A DNA stretch of 64,000 bases from Polyangium jinanense (lineage in GTDB: Bacteria > Myxococcota > Polyangia > Polyangiales > Polyangiaceae), in contig NZ_JAGTJJ010000006.1 of NCBI RefSeq assembly GCF_028435365.1, positions 343,245 through 407,244 on the forward strand. The letters run 5' to 3'. The notes beneath the pieces are model-generated. The model had not been told where the DNA came from. It ran no database searches and saw only the letters and a program-made list of their open reading frames with translations. Shown piece by piece: positions 55,636 through 64,000 of the stretch. Each line of letters starts with the position of its first letter. Within the stretch, counting starts at the first letter, position 1. The position numbers and the translations under genes were made by a program.

Positions 55636-56703
55636 ATGGCGCACGGGGGCTTGCCTAGAATGGTCCTATTGGCTCGCGTGATTATCGATAGGAATCTCCC
55701 CCGCGCCGCGGCCCTCCTCCTCGGGGCCGCGTTCGCGGTGACGCTCGCGGGCAGCGCGTCCGCCGAGGTGCCGCCCGATGTCCGCGCGACCGCGGAAAAA
55801 CTCTACCAGGACGCGTACGTGCTCGCGCTCGAGGGGCATCACGCGCGCGCCTGCGAGATGTACGAGGAGAGCGATCGGCTCGATCCGGCGAACGGGACGA
55901 AGCTCGAGCTCGCCAGGTGTTACGAGGCGACGGCGCGGCCCGCGAGCGCGTGGGCGCTCTACGTCGCGGTCGCCGAGGCCGACAAGGCGACCGGGAAAAA
56001 CCGAGCGCGCGAGGCCGAGGCGCGCGCCCGCGCCGACGCCCTCGATGCCGAGCTGCCGAGGCTCGTGCTGATGGTGCCGGCGTCCGTCGCGGACCGGAAG
56101 GGCCTCACGATCACGCGCGACGGCGTGGCGGTCGGCGAGGCGCTCTGGGGCACGCCGATGCCGGTGGACCTCGGAAAACACACGATCCGCGCCATCCGGC
56201 CGGACAAACAGGCCTGGGAGAGCGTCGTGAACGTGTCGAGGAATGGCGAGACGGTGACCGTGCCCATCCCCGCGCCCGCAGCGTGGGCGCCGCGCGTGCG
56301 CGAGGTGCCACGTGGACGCGACGAACGGCGAGGGATGAGCCCTCCGCCCCCGCTGGTCCTTTCGCTCGGGGGCGTGGCCCTCGCGGGGTTCACGGTCGGC
56401 GGCGTGACCGGCGGGCTGGCCTTCGCGAAATGGGAGGAGGTCAAAGAGATGGCGCCCAGGCAATGCAGCGCGCCCGCGGGTTTGTCCGGGTGCACGCAAG
56501 CCGTGGCCGACAAGGGGGCCGAGGCGTCGCGGTTCGCGGGCGCGTCGACGGCAGGGTTCGTCGTGGGAGGCGCCGCGCTCGCGGCGGGCGCGATCGTCTG
56601 GCTCACGAGCGGGTCGGGCAAACGGCCGGCCGCCGGGCGCATCGAGATCCTGCCGGTCGCAGAGCCGGCGAGCGTGGGCGGCGTCGTGCGAGGAGCGTTC
56701 TGA
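55636..56703 (+). CDS. TPR-like secreted/membrane protein with PEGA domain
   Basis: 355 residues from ATG 55636; an ATG at 55660 is a fair alternative that gives a tighter signal peptide. After the signal (ending AGSASA), a TPR-like helical region (about 45-130; YQDAYVLALEGHHARACEMYEESDRLDPANGTKLELARCYE) is followed by a PEGA-type beta domain (about 135-215; GLTITRDGVAVGEALWGTPMPVDLGKHTIRAIRPDK). Two hydrophobic segments (about 238-260 and 295-320) close the protein. This architecture is frequent in Polyangiales beside Ser/Thr kinase genes. Its stop overlaps the next start (TGATG). Confidence 0.72.
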   Translation: MAHGGLPRMVLLARVIIDRNLPRAAALLLGAAFAVTLAGSASAEVPPDVRATAEKLYQDAYVLALEGHHARACEMYEESDRLDPANGTKLELARCYEATARPASAWALYVAVAEADKATGKNRAREAEARARADALDAELPRLVLMVPASVADRKGLTITRDGVAVGEALWGTPMPVDLGKHTIRAIRPDKQAWESVVNVSRNGETVTVPIPAPAAWAPRVREVPRGRDERRGMSPPPPLVLSLGGVALAGFTVGGVTGGLAFAKWEEVKEMAPRQCSAPAGLSGCTQAVADKGAEASRFAGASTAGFVVGGAALAAGAIVWLTSGSGKRPAAGRIEILPVAEPASVGGVVRGAF

Positions 56704-57713
56704 TGGGAGGCGCTGCTCGTCCTTTGGGTCTTCGTGTCCTCGGGGCGCTTGCCGTCGCGACCACGAGCCTCTCGGCTTGCGGGCTCGTGGTGGGCATCGA
56801 GCCCATCGGTGTCACCTCGGGCGCGGGCGGTGGTGGTGGCGGCGGCACCGGCGGCACCGGCGGCGACGAGGCGGACGGCGGTCCCGGAGGCGCGCCTCCG
56901 CAGGGGCTCGGCTGCGACGACGCCATTCCGCTCGTCTTCGTGGACTGGGGCACGGTGGAGATCGACGCCGAGACGACCGAGGCAAAGGGCACGATCGAGA
57001 GTGGCCCGTTCACGGGGTGCACGACGTCGAGCGGCCCGGAGCACGTCTACGTCTTCGACGCGGAGCAGACCGGATATCTCACGGCGAGCCTGCCGGCCAC
57101 GGCGACGAGCTTCAACAGCGTTCTCTACGCGCGCCGGACGAGTTGCTCGAACCCGGACGGCGTCGTGCTTTGCCATGACCAGAGCGCCCTCGGCGGCGAG
57201 CTCCTTTCGTTCCCGGTCATGACGGGCGAGCGGATTTACCTCTTCGTGGACGGCCGGACGTCGGAGGATCGGGGCGCCTACCACCTGACCGTGAGCTTCT
57301 TTCCAGGCACGAGCTGCACGGGCCCGGTGCCCGTCGTGCTCGGCACGCCGATCGGCACCACCGCCATGGTGCTCGGCGTGAACAAGGTCGGCCCCGACAA
57401 CGACGCGAAATGCGGAGCCTGCGACACGAACGATTGCGCGGGGCAAGGGCGACAGACGATTTTTTCGATCAAGGCGCCGCTCGCGAAGGAGATCGAGGTG
57501 CAGCTCGACGCGACCTTCGACGCCGTGCTCTACGCGCGCACCGATTGCGAGAACGACATGTCCCAGCTCGCGCAGGACGGGTGCATCGACTCGCCGGAGA
57601 AGGGCGACGAGGTCATCCGCATCCCCGGCGGCGTGACGCCCACGATCCTGTTCGTCGATACGAACGCGGGGAGCCCCGCGGGCCCCTTCTCGATGCGGCT
57701 CATCCTGAAGTGA
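56703..57713 (+). CDS. Lipoprotein with repeated beta domain (hypothetical)
   Basis: 336 residues. The lipobox is SLSAC (Cys26), followed by a Gly/Thr linker (about 40-65). The mature part contains two similar beta-sandwich-like halves: one with EHVYVFDAEQTGYLTASLPA, FNSVLYARRTSC and RIYLFVDGR, the other with QTIFSIKAPLAKEIEVQLDA, FDAVLYARTDC and PTILFVDTNAG. This recalls the PPC (bacterial pre-peptidase C-terminal) type of domain that occurs in exported enzymes and surface proteins. No catalytic site is seen. It is translationally coupled to the TPR-PEGA gene. Confidence 0.72.
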   Translation: MGGAARPLGLRVLGALAVATTSLSACGLVVGIEPIGVTSGAGGGGGGGTGGTGGDEADGGPGGAPPQGLGCDDAIPLVFVDWGTVEIDAETTEAKGTIESGPFTGCTTSSGPEHVYVFDAEQTGYLTASLPATATSFNSVLYARRTSCSNPDGVVLCHDQSALGGELLSFPVMTGERIYLFVDGRTSEDRGAYHLTVSFFPGTSCTGPVPVVLGTPIGTTAMVLGVNKVGPDNDAKCGACDTNDCAGQGRQTIFSIKAPLAKEIEVQLDATFDAVLYARTDCENDMSQLAQDGCIDSPEKGDEVIRIPGGVTPTILFVDTNAGSPAGPFSMRLILK

Positions 57714-57799
57714 AGGGATGATCGCGGCGGACGAACCCATCCGGCGTCCATCCTTTCGGTTGGTCCCTCCGGACCCCAGGTACGTCGCCGGGGGGAATC

Positions 57800-58687
57800 A
57801 TGAAGCAAGCCGCGAAGAAGGATCCCAAAGACCTCGGGCAGAAACCTCCGTTCCCAGCGCAGGAGCAGGAGCACCCCGGCGCCGAGTCGGGCATGCAGCC
57901 TCGAGCGGACCACGGGGAGACGTCGTACCGAGGGCTCGGACGGCTGAAGGACCGCATCGCCCTGATCACCGGCGCCGACAGCGGCATCGGGCGCGCCGTC
58001 GCGATCGCCTACGCGCGCGAGGGCGCAGACGTGGGCATCGCGTACCTGAGCGAGCACGAGGACGCGAACGAGACGAAGCGCCTCGTGGAGGAAGCCGGCC
58101 AGAAAGCCGCGCTCTTCCCCGGCGATCTCTCGTCCGACACGGCATGCAAGAAGCTCGTGGAGGACGCGGTGAAGGCCTTCGGCCGCATCGACATCCTCGT
58201 GAACAACGCGGCCGAGCAGGGCAAGGCCGTCGAGACATTCGAGGAGCTCGACGCCGAGCGCGTGGAGCGCACCTTCCGCGTGAACATCCTCGCGATGTTC
58301 CACATCGTCCGGCACGCGCTGCCGCACATGAAGCCGGGCAGCGTCATCATCAACACGGCATCGATCCAGTCCTACCAGCCGAGCCCGGAGATCCTCGATT
58401 ACGCGGCCACGAAAGGCGCGATCGTCACCTTCAGCAAGGGCCTCGCGCAGGGGCTGATCGAGCGCGGGATCCGGGTGAACACGGTGGCGCCAGGGCCGGT
58501 GTGGACGCCGCTCGTCGTGCAGTCGTTCCCGGCGAACAAGAACGCGCGCTTCGGGGAAAACAGCCCCATGGAGCGGCCCGCGCAGCCAGCAGAGCTCGCG
58601 CCAGCGTACGTGTTCCTCGCGTCGAACGAGTCGAGCTACGTGAACGGCGAGGTGCTCGGCGTCACGGGCGGTAAGCCCCTCGGCTGA
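57800..58687 (+). CDS. SDR family oxidoreductase (YghA/glucose 1-dehydrogenase-like)
   Basis: 295 residues, starting at ATG 57800 with GGGGGAA nearby. An N-terminal extension of about 45 residues (PPFPAQEQEHPGAESGMQP) is typical of the YghA/YdaD-type group. The Rossmann motif is ITGADSGIGRA (about 56-66), NNAAEQ follows, and the catalytic set is Asn, Ser in IINTASIQSYQPSP, then Tyr and Lys in DYAATKGAIVTFSKGL. It should be a soluble NAD(P)-dependent reductase acting on an alcohol or sugar. The natural substrate is unknown; members are often stress-induced. Confidence 0.93.
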   Translation: MKQAAKKDPKDLGQKPPFPAQEQEHPGAESGMQPRADHGETSYRGLGRLKDRIALITGADSGIGRAVAIAYAREGADVGIAYLSEHEDANETKRLVEEAGQKAALFPGDLSSDTACKKLVEDAVKAFGRIDILVNNAAEQGKAVETFEELDAERVERTFRVNILAMFHIVRHALPHMKPGSVIINTASIQSYQPSPEILDYAATKGAIVTFSKGLAQGLIERGIRVNTVAPGPVWTPLVVQSFPANKNARFGENSPMERPAQPAELAPAYVFLASNESSYVNGEVLGVTGGKPLG

Positions 58688-58697
58688 GGAGGGGGGC

Positions 58698-58810
58698 CGC
58701 TGCGCTGGGGCGTTGCCCCAGGCCCCACCCGGGGCTGTCCGCCCCGGGACCCGGACCAGCGCAAGCGCTGGACCCTTGGTCGATGAACTGCGCGATGCGC
58801 AGTTCATCGA
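58698..58810 (-). repeat. Multi-hairpin repeat, copy 1 (diverged)
   Basis: A 113-bp element in minus orientation, starting 11 bases after the SDR stop. In element order it folds into four hairpins: arms of 14 bp around a 3-base loop (58780-58810), CCAGCGC-AA-GCGCTGG in plus-strand sense (58756-58771), an 8-bp stem CCCGGGGC/GCCCCGGG (58728-58748), and TGGGGC-GTT-GCCCCA (58706-58720). It aligns along its length to copy 2 but differs at many positions, several as paired changes inside stems. Confidence 0.75.
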
Positions 58811-58902
58811 ACAGGCCGAGGCAAGACCAGCCACGACCCTGCCGACCAAGACAGCAGCGCTGACCTTTCGACTGGCAACGCTGTCCCTGTCCCACCGGCT
58901 CG

Positions 58903-59014
58903 TGGAAGAACTGCGCATCGCGCAGTTCTTCCAACCCGAGTCCAGGGCTTGCCCTGGTTCGGGTCGAGGGGCGAACAGCCCCCGCGGGGTCCGGGGCAGA
59001 GCCCCGGCGCGGCG
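58903..59014 (+). repeat. Multi-hairpin repeat, copy 2
   Basis: A 112-bp element, head-to-head with copy 1 (92-bp gap). Its hairpins are TGGAAGAACTGCGC-ATC-complement (58903-58933), CCAGGGC-TT-GCCCTGG (58942-58957), GGGGC-GAACA-GCCCC (58968-58982) and CCGGGGC-AGA-GCCCCGG (58991-59007). Bases 58920-59014 reappear inverted at 63906-64000 with a single mismatch in a loop. It ends 48 bases before the start of the AAA+-like membrane protein. Confidence 0.85.
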
Positions 59015-59062
59015 CCCCTGCCCTTTGGCCCAGCGGCTGCCCTTCCGCTACCCTGCCGGGCG

Positions 59063-61378
59063 ATGCCCTGGCATACCCGCTCGCTCTGGATCGCGGCTCT
59101 CGCCGTGGCGTATGCCGCGGTTGCGGGGCTCTGGGCGACGGGCGGGGATGCGAGCACGTGGTTTGCGCTGCTCTTGCCGCTCGCGTGTGTGGTCGGCTGG
59201 AGGCTGACTGCGGAGGACGTGCGCGGCGACGATACGCTCGATCCGGGCGCGCGCTCGGCTGCGCGGCTCACGATCGCTGGCGCTGCGCTCTTCACTGCGT
59301 CGCGATGCGGGGCGAGCGCGCCGGGCTTCGTCGCAGGCGAGAACCTCGGCGTCGCGCTGGCAGCGATGGGCTCCTTGTGGGCCATTGCGCGGATCAAACC
59401 TCTTGGTGGGCTCGCGGAGCCGAGTCCCTCGGCGCGTAGGCTCGACGCTGCTGCGTTTGCCGCGTTCTTCTGGGTGGTCGCGGCGGCGCTGCCCGGCGCG
59501 GCTGCGATGCTGCCCGAGCGCACCGAGGGGCTCGATCCGCTGCTCATCGACTATGCGACCGTGGCTGCGTCGATCGGCTCGCTCGGCGTCCAGCTCTTCG
59601 CGGCGGCGCGGCTTGCGGCCACGCGGCGCGCTGAGATCGGCGTGGCGGAGCGGGCGCAGGCGGCGCTCTGGCTCGGCTCGATCGCGCTCGCCGTGGGGAT
59701 CCTCGCGGCCGCGGCGCAGGTCCTCCCGCCTGAGCGGGTCTTGCCGATCGCGGTGGTGCTTGCGTCGGTCGGCGCGGCGTTTGCGGCGGCGAGCCGTGAG
59801 CCCGAGACGGTCCTCTCGGTCCTTCGGCTCACGCTGGCGACGACGGGCCTCGTCGCGCCGATCGCGCTTGGCGCGGTCTATGCGGCGCACGTGCGGCCGG
59901 CCGTGGCGGGGCCGATCGCGTTCGGGGCGGCGGGGGCGGCTGCGATTGCGGCGCTCGTCGCGCAGAGGCTCGCGCATCGGGCGGGGCCCGGGAGCGGGCG
60001 GCTCTTGCCGGCGCTGCAGGCTGCGACGCGGGCGGCGATGACGCCTGATCCGGAAGATGCGCTCCGATCGGCGCTCTTCGAGCTGCGCGGCGCGCTCGGG
60101 CAAGACGGCGATCCGCCGGCCCTCTACCGGTTCTTCCCGGCCGAACAGGTCAGCGTCGATCGCGCTGGCTTCCTTCACACGAAAAAGGCCGAGATGCCGC
60201 CGCGGCTCGTCTCGCTCGCGGACGCGGAGCCCGAGCGGATCCTGCGGATCGAGGTGATGCATGCGGTGTCGGTGCGGAAGCCCGAGGTGCGTCCGCTCAT
60301 CGCGTGGATGGAGGACAACCACCTCTCGGCCGTGAGCGTGGTCCGCGACGTGGATGGCCCGATCGGGGCGCTCACGGTGCCCGCGGGGGCGCGGGTCGCG
60401 CCCAAGGCGCTCTCGGACGTGCGGGCTCTGCGGCAGCTCTCGGATCGGCTGGCCGCGGTGCTCGGCGTGTCGTCGATGCTGTCGCGCTCCCGCGAGCGTG
60501 AGCTCGTCGCGCGGGGCGACCTCGAAACGCGCGAAGCGGAGCGCGCGCGCCTCGCGACGGAGCTCGGGCGCATCGAGGGCCAGTTCGAGGCCGTGGCGAA
60601 GAGCTTCGAGCAGCGGGCGCGGGTCGCGCTTTACAGCCCCGCGGCGCAGGCGGCGGTGCAGCGGCTGGAGCAGCTCGCGGGCGTGGACGTGCCGGTCACG
60701 CTCTTGACGTCGCCTGGGATCGACGCGGTCGCGTGGGCGGCGCTCGTGCACCTTGCGTCGGCGCGCAAGAAGGGCGTCATGGTGATCGTGGACGGGACGA
60801 ACCCGGCGGAGCACGACACGGCGAAGTGGCAGGATCGGGTCGCGTCGCCGCTCGCGCTTGCCGCGGGTGGGACACTCGTCTTGCTCGACGCGCACGTGCT
60901 GCCGGAGCTCGTGCAGATGCGGATCGCGTCGGGTTTGCCCGCGGACGTGGGGCTCGTGGTGGCGCTGCCGGGCACGGTGGACTCGCTGGCGGCGAGCGGG
61001 AAGCTCTCGGAGGCGCTGGCGGATCGGCTCGGGGATCGGTCCGTGGCGCTGCCGGCGCTCTCGTCGCGCGGGGAGGATCTCTCGCTCCTCGTGCTGGAGA
61101 CGCTCACGCGCATCGGAAAGCGGCTGCGGCAGGCGCCGCTCGGGATCGATCCGCGCGCGCTGGCGGCGCTCGTGGACTACGATTTCCCGGGCAACGACGC
61201 GGAGCTCGAAGGGATCCTCTTCCGGGCCGCGCTCGTGACGCCGCCGGAGGCACGCGCGGTGACGGTGCGTGAGCTCGAAACCGCGGGGTTCTCACCGCCG
61301 CCAGGGAGCGAGCGCAGGGCGCGCGGGACAGGGCCTTTGCCGCAGCCGCGCAGGAAGCGGTCGTCGAAGACGACGTAG
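59063..61378 (+). CDS. Membrane protein with GAF-like and degraded sigma-54-activator AAA+ domains
   Basis: 771 residues. About ten hydrophobic helices fill residues 1-300. A GAF-like region follows (about 325-470; ALRSALFELRGALG, LIAWMEDNHLSAVSVV, GALTVPAG), then a charged coiled coil (about 475-525). The C-terminal part follows the sigma-54 activator AAA+ fold: ALAAGGTLVLLDAHVLPELVQ (about 597-617) matches AxGGTLFLDEIxxLPxxxQ, and DYDFPGNDAELEGILFRA matches YxWPGNVRELxN. The Walker A site is lost (LLTSPGIDAVAW near 548), Walker B DE is DA, and the sigma-contacting GAFTGA loop is deleted. It should not hydrolyse ATP or activate sigma-54 itself. It may be a membrane-bound signalling scaffold. 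Confidence 0.7.
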   Translation: MPWHTRSLWIAALAVAYAAVAGLWATGGDASTWFALLLPLACVVGWRLTAEDVRGDDTLDPGARSAARLTIAGAALFTASRCGASAPGFVAGENLGVALAAMGSLWAIARIKPLGGLAEPSPSARRLDAAAFAAFFWVVAAALPGAAAMLPERTEGLDPLLIDYATVAASIGSLGVQLFAAARLAATRRAEIGVAERAQAALWLGSIALAVGILAAAAQVLPPERVLPIAVVLASVGAAFAAASREPETVLSVLRLTLATTGLVAPIALGAVYAAHVRPAVAGPIAFGAAGAAAIAALVAQRLAHRAGPGSGRLLPALQAATRAAMTPDPEDALRSALFELRGALGQDGDPPALYRFFPAEQVSVDRAGFLHTKKAEMPPRLVSLADAEPERILRIEVMHAVSVRKPEVRPLIAWMEDNHLSAVSVVRDVDGPIGALTVPAGARVAPKALSDVRALRQLSDRLAAVLGVSSMLSRSRERELVARGDLETREAERARLATELGRIEGQFEAVAKSFEQRARVALYSPAAQAAVQRLEQLAGVDVPVTLLTSPGIDAVAWAALVHLASARKKGVMVIVDGTNPAEHDTAKWQDRVASPLALAAGGTLVLLDAHVLPELVQMRIASGLPADVGLVVALPGTVDSLAASGKLSEALADRLGDRSVALPALSSRGEDLSLLVLETLTRIGKRLRQAPLGIDPRALAALVDYDFPGNDAELEGILFRAALVTPPEARAVTVRELETAGFSPPPGSERRARGTGPLPQPRRKRSSKTT

Positions 61379-61380
61379 CG

Positions 61381-61418
61381 AGGCGTCTGCTCGATCTCGT
61401 GGGTGATCCGAGACGCCT
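61381..61418 (+). terminator. Hairpin between the AAA+-like and UvrA genes
   Basis: AGGCGTCT (61381-61388) and AGACGCCT (61411-61418) are exact complements, and the inner bases (CGATC/GATCCG) extend the stem to about 13 bp. It begins two bases after the stop codon of the membrane-protein gene and probably ends that transcript. Confidence 0.5.
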
Positions 61419-61450
61419 GCGGGGTCCCTGGACAAACCCGGCGGCGTCTC

Positions 61451-61479
61451 TTGACAAACCCGTTGGTGCTCGATGACAT
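61451..61479 (+). promoter_or_regulatory. Putative promoter of the uvrA paralogue, leaderless type
   Basis: TTGACA (61451-61456) is a perfect -35 element. After exactly 17 bp comes TGACAT (61474-61479), a weak -10. The ATG at 61489 is only nine bases further, with no ribosome-binding site, which fits a leaderless mRNA, as is common in actinobacteria. GACAAACCCG occurs twice here (61431-61440 and 61453-61462), possibly an operator. Confidence 0.5.
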
Positions 61480-61488
61480 GAGCCCAAC

Positions 61489-63876
<2,388 letters not shown>

Positions 63877-63905
63877 GCAAGTCCGCGTTTCCCGCGATTG
63901 CAAGC

Positions 63906-64000
63906 CGCCGCGCCGGGGCGCTGCCCCGGACCCCGCGGGGGCTGTTCGCCCCTCGACCCGAACCAGGGCAAGCCCTGGACTCGGGTTGGAAGAACTGCGC
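63906..64000 (-). repeat. Multi-hairpin repeat, copy 3 (cut by window end)
   Basis: This begins 30 bases after the UvrA stop, in minus orientation. It matches bases 58920-59014 inverted at 94 of 95 positions. It contains CCGGGGC-GCT-GCCCCGG (63913-63929) and CCAGGGC-AA-GCCCTGG (63963-63978). The window stops exactly after the first arm of the longest hairpin (GGAAGAACTGCGC), so the element surely continues. Confidence 0.85.

Follow-up and report, generated by a model that had tools for sequence, protein, structure and literature searches.

An asymmetric multi-hairpin element with two unlike ends, probably mobile DNA, in genomes of the genus Polyangium

Results

The locus and its composite element

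The window, i.e., the whole stretch of 64,000 nucleotides of Polyangium jinanense DNA analysed here, belongs to a neighbourhood 92% identical to Polyangium sp. 15x6. An SDR oxidoreductase gene (57800-58687, forward strand) ends with a stop codon ~5 nt from a composite element of ~327 nt (58693-59019), which is followed by another forward-strand gene (59063-61378, start codon assumed) coding for a sigma-54-activator-type AAA domain near the C terminus. The element consists of an A arm on the forward strand (58695-58810), a core of ~92 nt (58811-58902) and an opposing B arm on the reverse strand (58903-59017); its limits were placed where column conservation falls, 14 nt outside the GGGG of stem 1. 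Each arm is ~116 nt long and contains four hairpins in identical order: stems 1 to 4 occupy 58705-58721, 58728-58748, 58756-58771 and 58780-58810 in the A arm, and 58991-59007, ~58966-58984, 58942-58957 and 58903-58933 in the B arm. Aligned with its own reverse complement, the element is 71.5% identical over 330 columns.

A third arm, incomplete at the window end (63898-64000, forward strand), begins directly after a UvrA-like gene located at 61489-63876; over 95 nt (63906-64000), it is 98.9% identical to the B arm of the window. The UvrA-like gene has a match in genome G001 and none longer than 800 nt in the stretches of G002, G003 and G004 examined.

The original prediction treated 58698-59014 as two separate head-to-head copies of a repeat. 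Its four hairpins in the same order are indeed there, while the supposed copies are the unlike ends of a single element: the segment 58693-59019 is one composite element, not two independent copies. The first set of halves gave 98 facing pairs and 59 unpaired halves, several of the latter being cut at locus ends. In all of the DNA examined, we counted 130 distinct paired elements irrespective of orientation. The type of stem 4 could be read at both ends in 107 of them, and every one of these combined an A with a B end (no A/A, no B/B); five loci in the single-contig genome G102 were likewise A/B. The outer hairpins reassort more freely, with 25 combinations of stem-1, stem-3 and end type.

A terminal extension, CTGAGCATGGGTCTC, lies directly outside an arm at 20 of its 26 places in 2.1 Mb examined (e.g., L001, L020 and L072); four of the other six places are a single orthologous stretch, and 25 of the 26 are distinct. 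In G004_C150 (L162, L164 and L166), as well as in L205 and L218, a full arm that bears a GCATCGACTGCGC stem has behind it a partial second arm pointing the same way.

Hairpins are kept by paired changes

All of the paired substitutions quoted in the original prediction are present in the window. Stem 1 reads CTGGGGC/GCCCCAG in one arm and CCGGGGC/GCCCCGG in the other, stem 3 reads CCAGCGC/GCGCTGG versus CCAGGGC/GCCCTGG, and pairs 2 and 5 of stem 4 are swapped as well. Folded as DNA, the window element has a z-score of -14.3, none of 100 shuffles being equally stable. In a MAFFT alignment of 44 arms hand-picked for diversity, 95.7% of cells were paired versus 87.8 in shuffles, and changes on both sides were found in 17 of 41 pairs. 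Covariation, which the original prediction ascribed to selection on structure, was borne out in this alignment: 141 cells were doubly changed where shuffles gave 44.5 (none of 500 reached this value), and their number fell to 14-21 once the partner was shifted by one column. The number of further pair types was unexceptional, being equalled or exceeded in 86 of 500 shuffles, and helix 3 was frequently unpaired in its outer part (columns 59-63). Structure-preserving change in the hairpins is thus strongly supported.

A larger set of 282 arms (278, 276 and 235 of them scored) was used for counting pair types, with patterns that demand the constant parts of each stem; most loci were also detected via a perfect inner stem 4, a part left out of the counts. 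Stems 1 and 3, together with the five outer pairs of stem 4, gave 4982 Watson-Crick, one G-T and nine mismatched cells (4992 in total). Stem 2 was looser, with 1679 Watson-Crick, 123 G-T and 138 mismatched cells. The rarity of G-T pairs points to structure at the DNA level, or to structure required on both strands.

As DNA, the minimum-energy fold of the window element pairs arm A with arm B in a foldback (-129.6 kcal/mol), versus -108.8 kcal/mol when restricted to local pairs. Comparing local with long-range pairing reveals which fold is kept. At variable stem positions, local pairing was intact in 2047 of 2056 cells and A-with-B foldback pairing in 1156 of 2056; therefore, the maintained structure is the local hairpins and not the long foldback. 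An Rfam 15 search of 56000-62000 returned a single match of 22.1 bits against a gathering threshold of 100 (E 0.83), and hence no RNA family.

Distribution within the order

A pattern scan of genome contigs found at least 120 loci. Four Polyangium strains account for 112 of the 120 listed; the remaining eight, from outside the genus, show the short stem alone, with no arm. We also searched 144 sampled genomes of the order with a covariance model built from the 44 arms, its filters missing some weak matches. At least 25 matches each were found in six genomes, which are all of the Polyangium genomes examined (6/6); one more genome, G140, gave one weak match, and 137 gave none. Other copies that preserve the pairing do exist (the 130 paired elements), so the outcome named as refuting the original prediction, an absence of further copies or copies without preserved pairing, did not occur. 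Full elements numbered 7 in 162 kb of 15x6, 10 in 400 kb of y55x31, 15 in 354 kb of 6x1 and 3 in 218 kb of P. fumosum, suggesting a few hundred copies per genome, from stretches partly selected for containing elements. Nothing matched in phage, plasmid or viral collections, the viral scan using one exact pattern.

Evidence for mobility

At 12 orthologous intergenic sites, related species lack the element; one of these sites has repeat-like, ambiguous flanks, and two hold partial elements. The site in the window, one of these 12, is filled in 15x6 and empty in the three other genomes compared. Moreover, copies group by species: a tree built from 61 elements out of the 130 shows 14 label changes, whereas shuffles gave 33.3 and none of 200 reached so low a number. 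Empty sites in related species and clustering by species together lead us to conclude that the element is mobile.

Other observations show that the history of individual sites is not simple. At two common sites (31 and 32), both of two species carry the element in opposite orientation, and the window copy resembles a paralogue in 15x6 slightly more (92%) than the 15x6 copy found at the site of the window (90%). So, re-insertion, inversion or gene conversion also occurs. Such inverted or swapped elements at sites common to different species, together with the closer paralogue, leave some probability that the element spread by recombination instead of transposition. At the common site of the window and 15x6, the core has diverged more than the arms.

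No target duplication was seen around 89 elements: the mean longest direct repeat in the flanks was 4.56 versus 4.71 in shuffles (p 0.97), with exact insertion junctions uncertain because intergenic DNA diverges too fast. A palindromic target was suggested by the flanks as read by eye, and 51 elements gave a weak signal at a few positions, a strict anchor having removed another 40. This idea was set aside without being rejected: when 89 elements were compared with shuffles made within each genome, p ranged from 0.13 to 0.64 in three of the four flank windows; the fourth showed a faint excess (p 0.06, recount 0.04, uncorrected for four windows).

Genomic placement

Gene context was derived with a simple home-made gene caller, and the counts are approximate because it mis-called the window's own downstream gene. 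The median distance from the element is 9 nt for the predicted 3' ends of genes (n = 134) and 117 nt for 5' ends (n = 86). Convergent genes surround 41 of 110 classified elements, compared to 187 of 929 adjacent gene pairs; besides these 110, two elements fell in a called gene and 18 had no gene on one side. In tandem contexts, orientation relative to the upstream gene was random (17 A versus 15 B).

The single contig of G102 (13,235,919 bases) represents essentially a whole genome, with a dnaA match at 11.65 Mb. Its best 150 arms fall into four equal bins of increasing distance from dnaA as 1, 18, 55 and 76. All 150 are situated within 2.3-10.0 Mb of G102:C1, distant from the dnaA match. Strand bias along the contig was not significant (35 switches versus 39.8 in shuffles, p 0.17; 80 arms assigned as A arms by score, which is inexact).

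Search for a mobiliser

The spread of REP-like repeats is commonly attributed to RAYT transposases. The link to a RAYT/TnpA gene considered in the original prediction failed to appear. Matches to the Y1 transposase family occur in three of the six Polyangium genomes, namely G001, G002 (partial) and G092 (one of two with an inner stop), and none was found in G003, G004 or the single-contig G102. The three Polyangium Y1 loci examined, which do not include G092:C35, carry no element arm. In the order as a whole, 71 of 144 genomes have Y1 matches, and 68 of these 71 are without the at least 25 element matches. In these genomes, RAYT cannot serve as a general explanation, and the distribution of Y1 genes, compared with that of the element, argues against mobilisation by Y1 enzymes.

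IS91-type matches were found in four of the six Polyangium genomes (10 of 11 matches partial), and IS110-type matches in two. There was no element arm within ~1.5 kb of the Polyangium Y1 and IS91 matches examined. One element of G102 lies ~4 kb from a full IS91-type match, and another lies ~0.7 kb from the IS110 locus L248, a proximity that chance allows. Both types were rejected as mobilisers, not being common to all six genomes.

Neither was a long form with a transposase found among the seven long arm pairs listed, five of which were followed up, and the idea of an autonomous long form was rejected. Three pairs from P. fumosum share a satellite-like middle. These forms (L003:2034-3033, L020:1111-1969 and L034:133-963) are 0.8-1.0 kb long and contain no clear gene. 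One long arm pair of G004 encloses ordinary genes, as judged by eye. At L086:2377-4176, a lipoprotein-like gene, also assigned by eye, lies between B and A arms.

Discussion

The original prediction left a choice between a REP/BIME-like element, a mobile miniature element and a structured RNA. Empty sites, species-specific amplification and the intergenic location at 3' ends agree best with a mobile, REP/BIME-like element, while a structured RNA gene is disfavoured by the random orientation (17 versus 15), the near absence of G-T pairs and the lack of an Rfam family. We consider it probable that the element is non-autonomous mobile DNA of the genus Polyangium, working in a REPIN/BIME-like manner. 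An enzyme encoded elsewhere would recognise the ends by their hairpins, probably in single-stranded or cruciform form, and would copy or move the element into intergenic DNA, where insertions just after stop codons would be tolerated.

Four other explanations deserve to be weighed against this one. The hairpins might be corrected rather than selected: template switching or repair within a quasi-palindrome would rewrite one side of a stem from the other, so that rare variants appear already paired. In agreement with this, rare alleles occur at similar frequencies in stem 4 and in unpaired columns (0.41 versus 0.52 in A arms and 1.58 versus 1.63 in B arms per 100 arms per column, with imperfect masks for stems 2 and 3), and among the rare variants listed for stems 1 and 4, most have both sides paired. 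Such variants, however, may derive from other element lineages, and correction accounts for pairing, not for spread; we find it rather unlikely, and it can operate alongside a mobile element. A classical REPIN or BIME moved by RAYT, a Y1 HUH transposase that was lost or left unassembled in some genomes, seems improbable to us. The inverted doublet, intergenic location, high copy number, absence of target duplication and compensatory hairpin changes are those of REPINs and of IS200/IS605 elements in the available text of the respective sources (PMC3116915; PMC2817692), and G001, G002 and G092 do have Y1 matches of the quality given above. Nonetheless, the three other Polyangium genomes, including the single-contig one, have none, the three Y1 loci examined are without an arm, nearly all Y1-bearing genomes of the order (68 of 71) lack the at least 25 element matches, and the tetranucleotides GTAG and CGTC stand at 18 and 34 of 178 ends, respectively.

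Another scenario, in our opinion quite improbable, holds that each copy is under selection as a functional 3'-end element, its hairpins acting in mRNA through 3'-end protection or bidirectional termination. The median distance of 9 nt to gene 3' ends (117 nt to 5' ends), the share of convergent contexts (41/110 versus 187/929) and the arms being less changed than the core at the site common to the window and 15x6 would all fit. Yet G-T pairs, which RNA tolerates, occupy one of 4992 cells (structure on both strands would exclude them too), orthologous genes in related species do without the element, no T run follows the stems of the window copy as read by eye, and the 3'-end bias may merely mark harmless places. 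As for a MITE of a DDE transposon with long terminal inverted repeats, the arms do repeat each other imperfectly in inverted orientation (71.5% across the element), but their ends are strictly unlike, and the seven long arm pairs listed include no full-length relative bearing a transposase. With no direct repeat in the flanks (4.56 versus 4.71, p 0.97), and hence no target-site duplication, we regard this variant as highly improbable.

Returning to non-autonomous mobile DNA with hairpinned ends, we might tentatively go one step further, into what we still regard as doubtful: the element could stand for a class of mobile DNA present throughout the genus, in which the two multi-hairpin ends have to differ in type and which is moved, in single-stranded or cruciform form, by an enzyme other than the Y1, IS91 and IS110 types. 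The ends may have to differ for each arm to fold on itself and not back on the other. Polyangium harbours an abundant REPIN-like population, with no RAYT-type gene detected in half of the genomes, one single-contig genome included, so the existence of other spreaders of hairpin DNA becomes a testable question. The hosts are soil bacteria that can be cultured.

Comparison with known systems

In line with the original prediction, which knew of no named myxobacterial repeat with a four-stem layout, we found no description of the Polyangium element in the open-access literature searched; two REP papers, searched by terms, returned no mention of Polyangium or Sorangium. BOX repeats are modular. As far as the available text of PMC3049150 describes them, BOX, RUP and similar small interspersed repeats resemble the Polyangium element in being small, high-copy and intergenic; they are taxonomically remote from it and were compared by description. 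Non-autonomous elements of the IS200/IS605 type share with it the hairpins at the ends and the absence of target-site duplication, exact junctions being uncertain, and differ in that three of the six Polyangium genomes have no Y1 match.

BIMEs and GTAG/CGTC-tagged REPs, as presented in the available text of PMC2817692 and PMC3733652, likewise consist of palindromes that alternate in orientation close to the ends of genes and show complementary changes in the stems. Unlike in these repeats, neither tag is conserved in the Polyangium element, as the end counts above indicate. G-T pairing, which the same part of PMC3733652 reports as frequent in REP stems, is nearly absent from stems 1, 3 and 4 in Polyangium. 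Among the defining traits of REPs, REPINs and BIMEs, the element has the high-copy, intergenic, palindromic inverted doublets. A single short palindrome of 20-40 bp is replaced by four hairpins per arm, no conserved unpaired tag marks one end, and no RAYT gene flanked by the repeat was found (no Y1 match in G003, G004 and G102; three Y1 loci without an arm).

REPINs remain the closest parallel. In the available text of PMC3116915, they are inverted REP doublets with common compensatory changes, proposed to be miniature non-autonomous mobile DNA moved by RAYT. The Polyangium element is likewise an inverted doublet with a spacer, intergenic, present in high copy number and subject to compensatory changes. 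Unlike REPINs, it has no general RAYT in its genomes, its arm comprises four hairpins over ~116 nt instead of one REP, and its two ends are of different type in every typed case.
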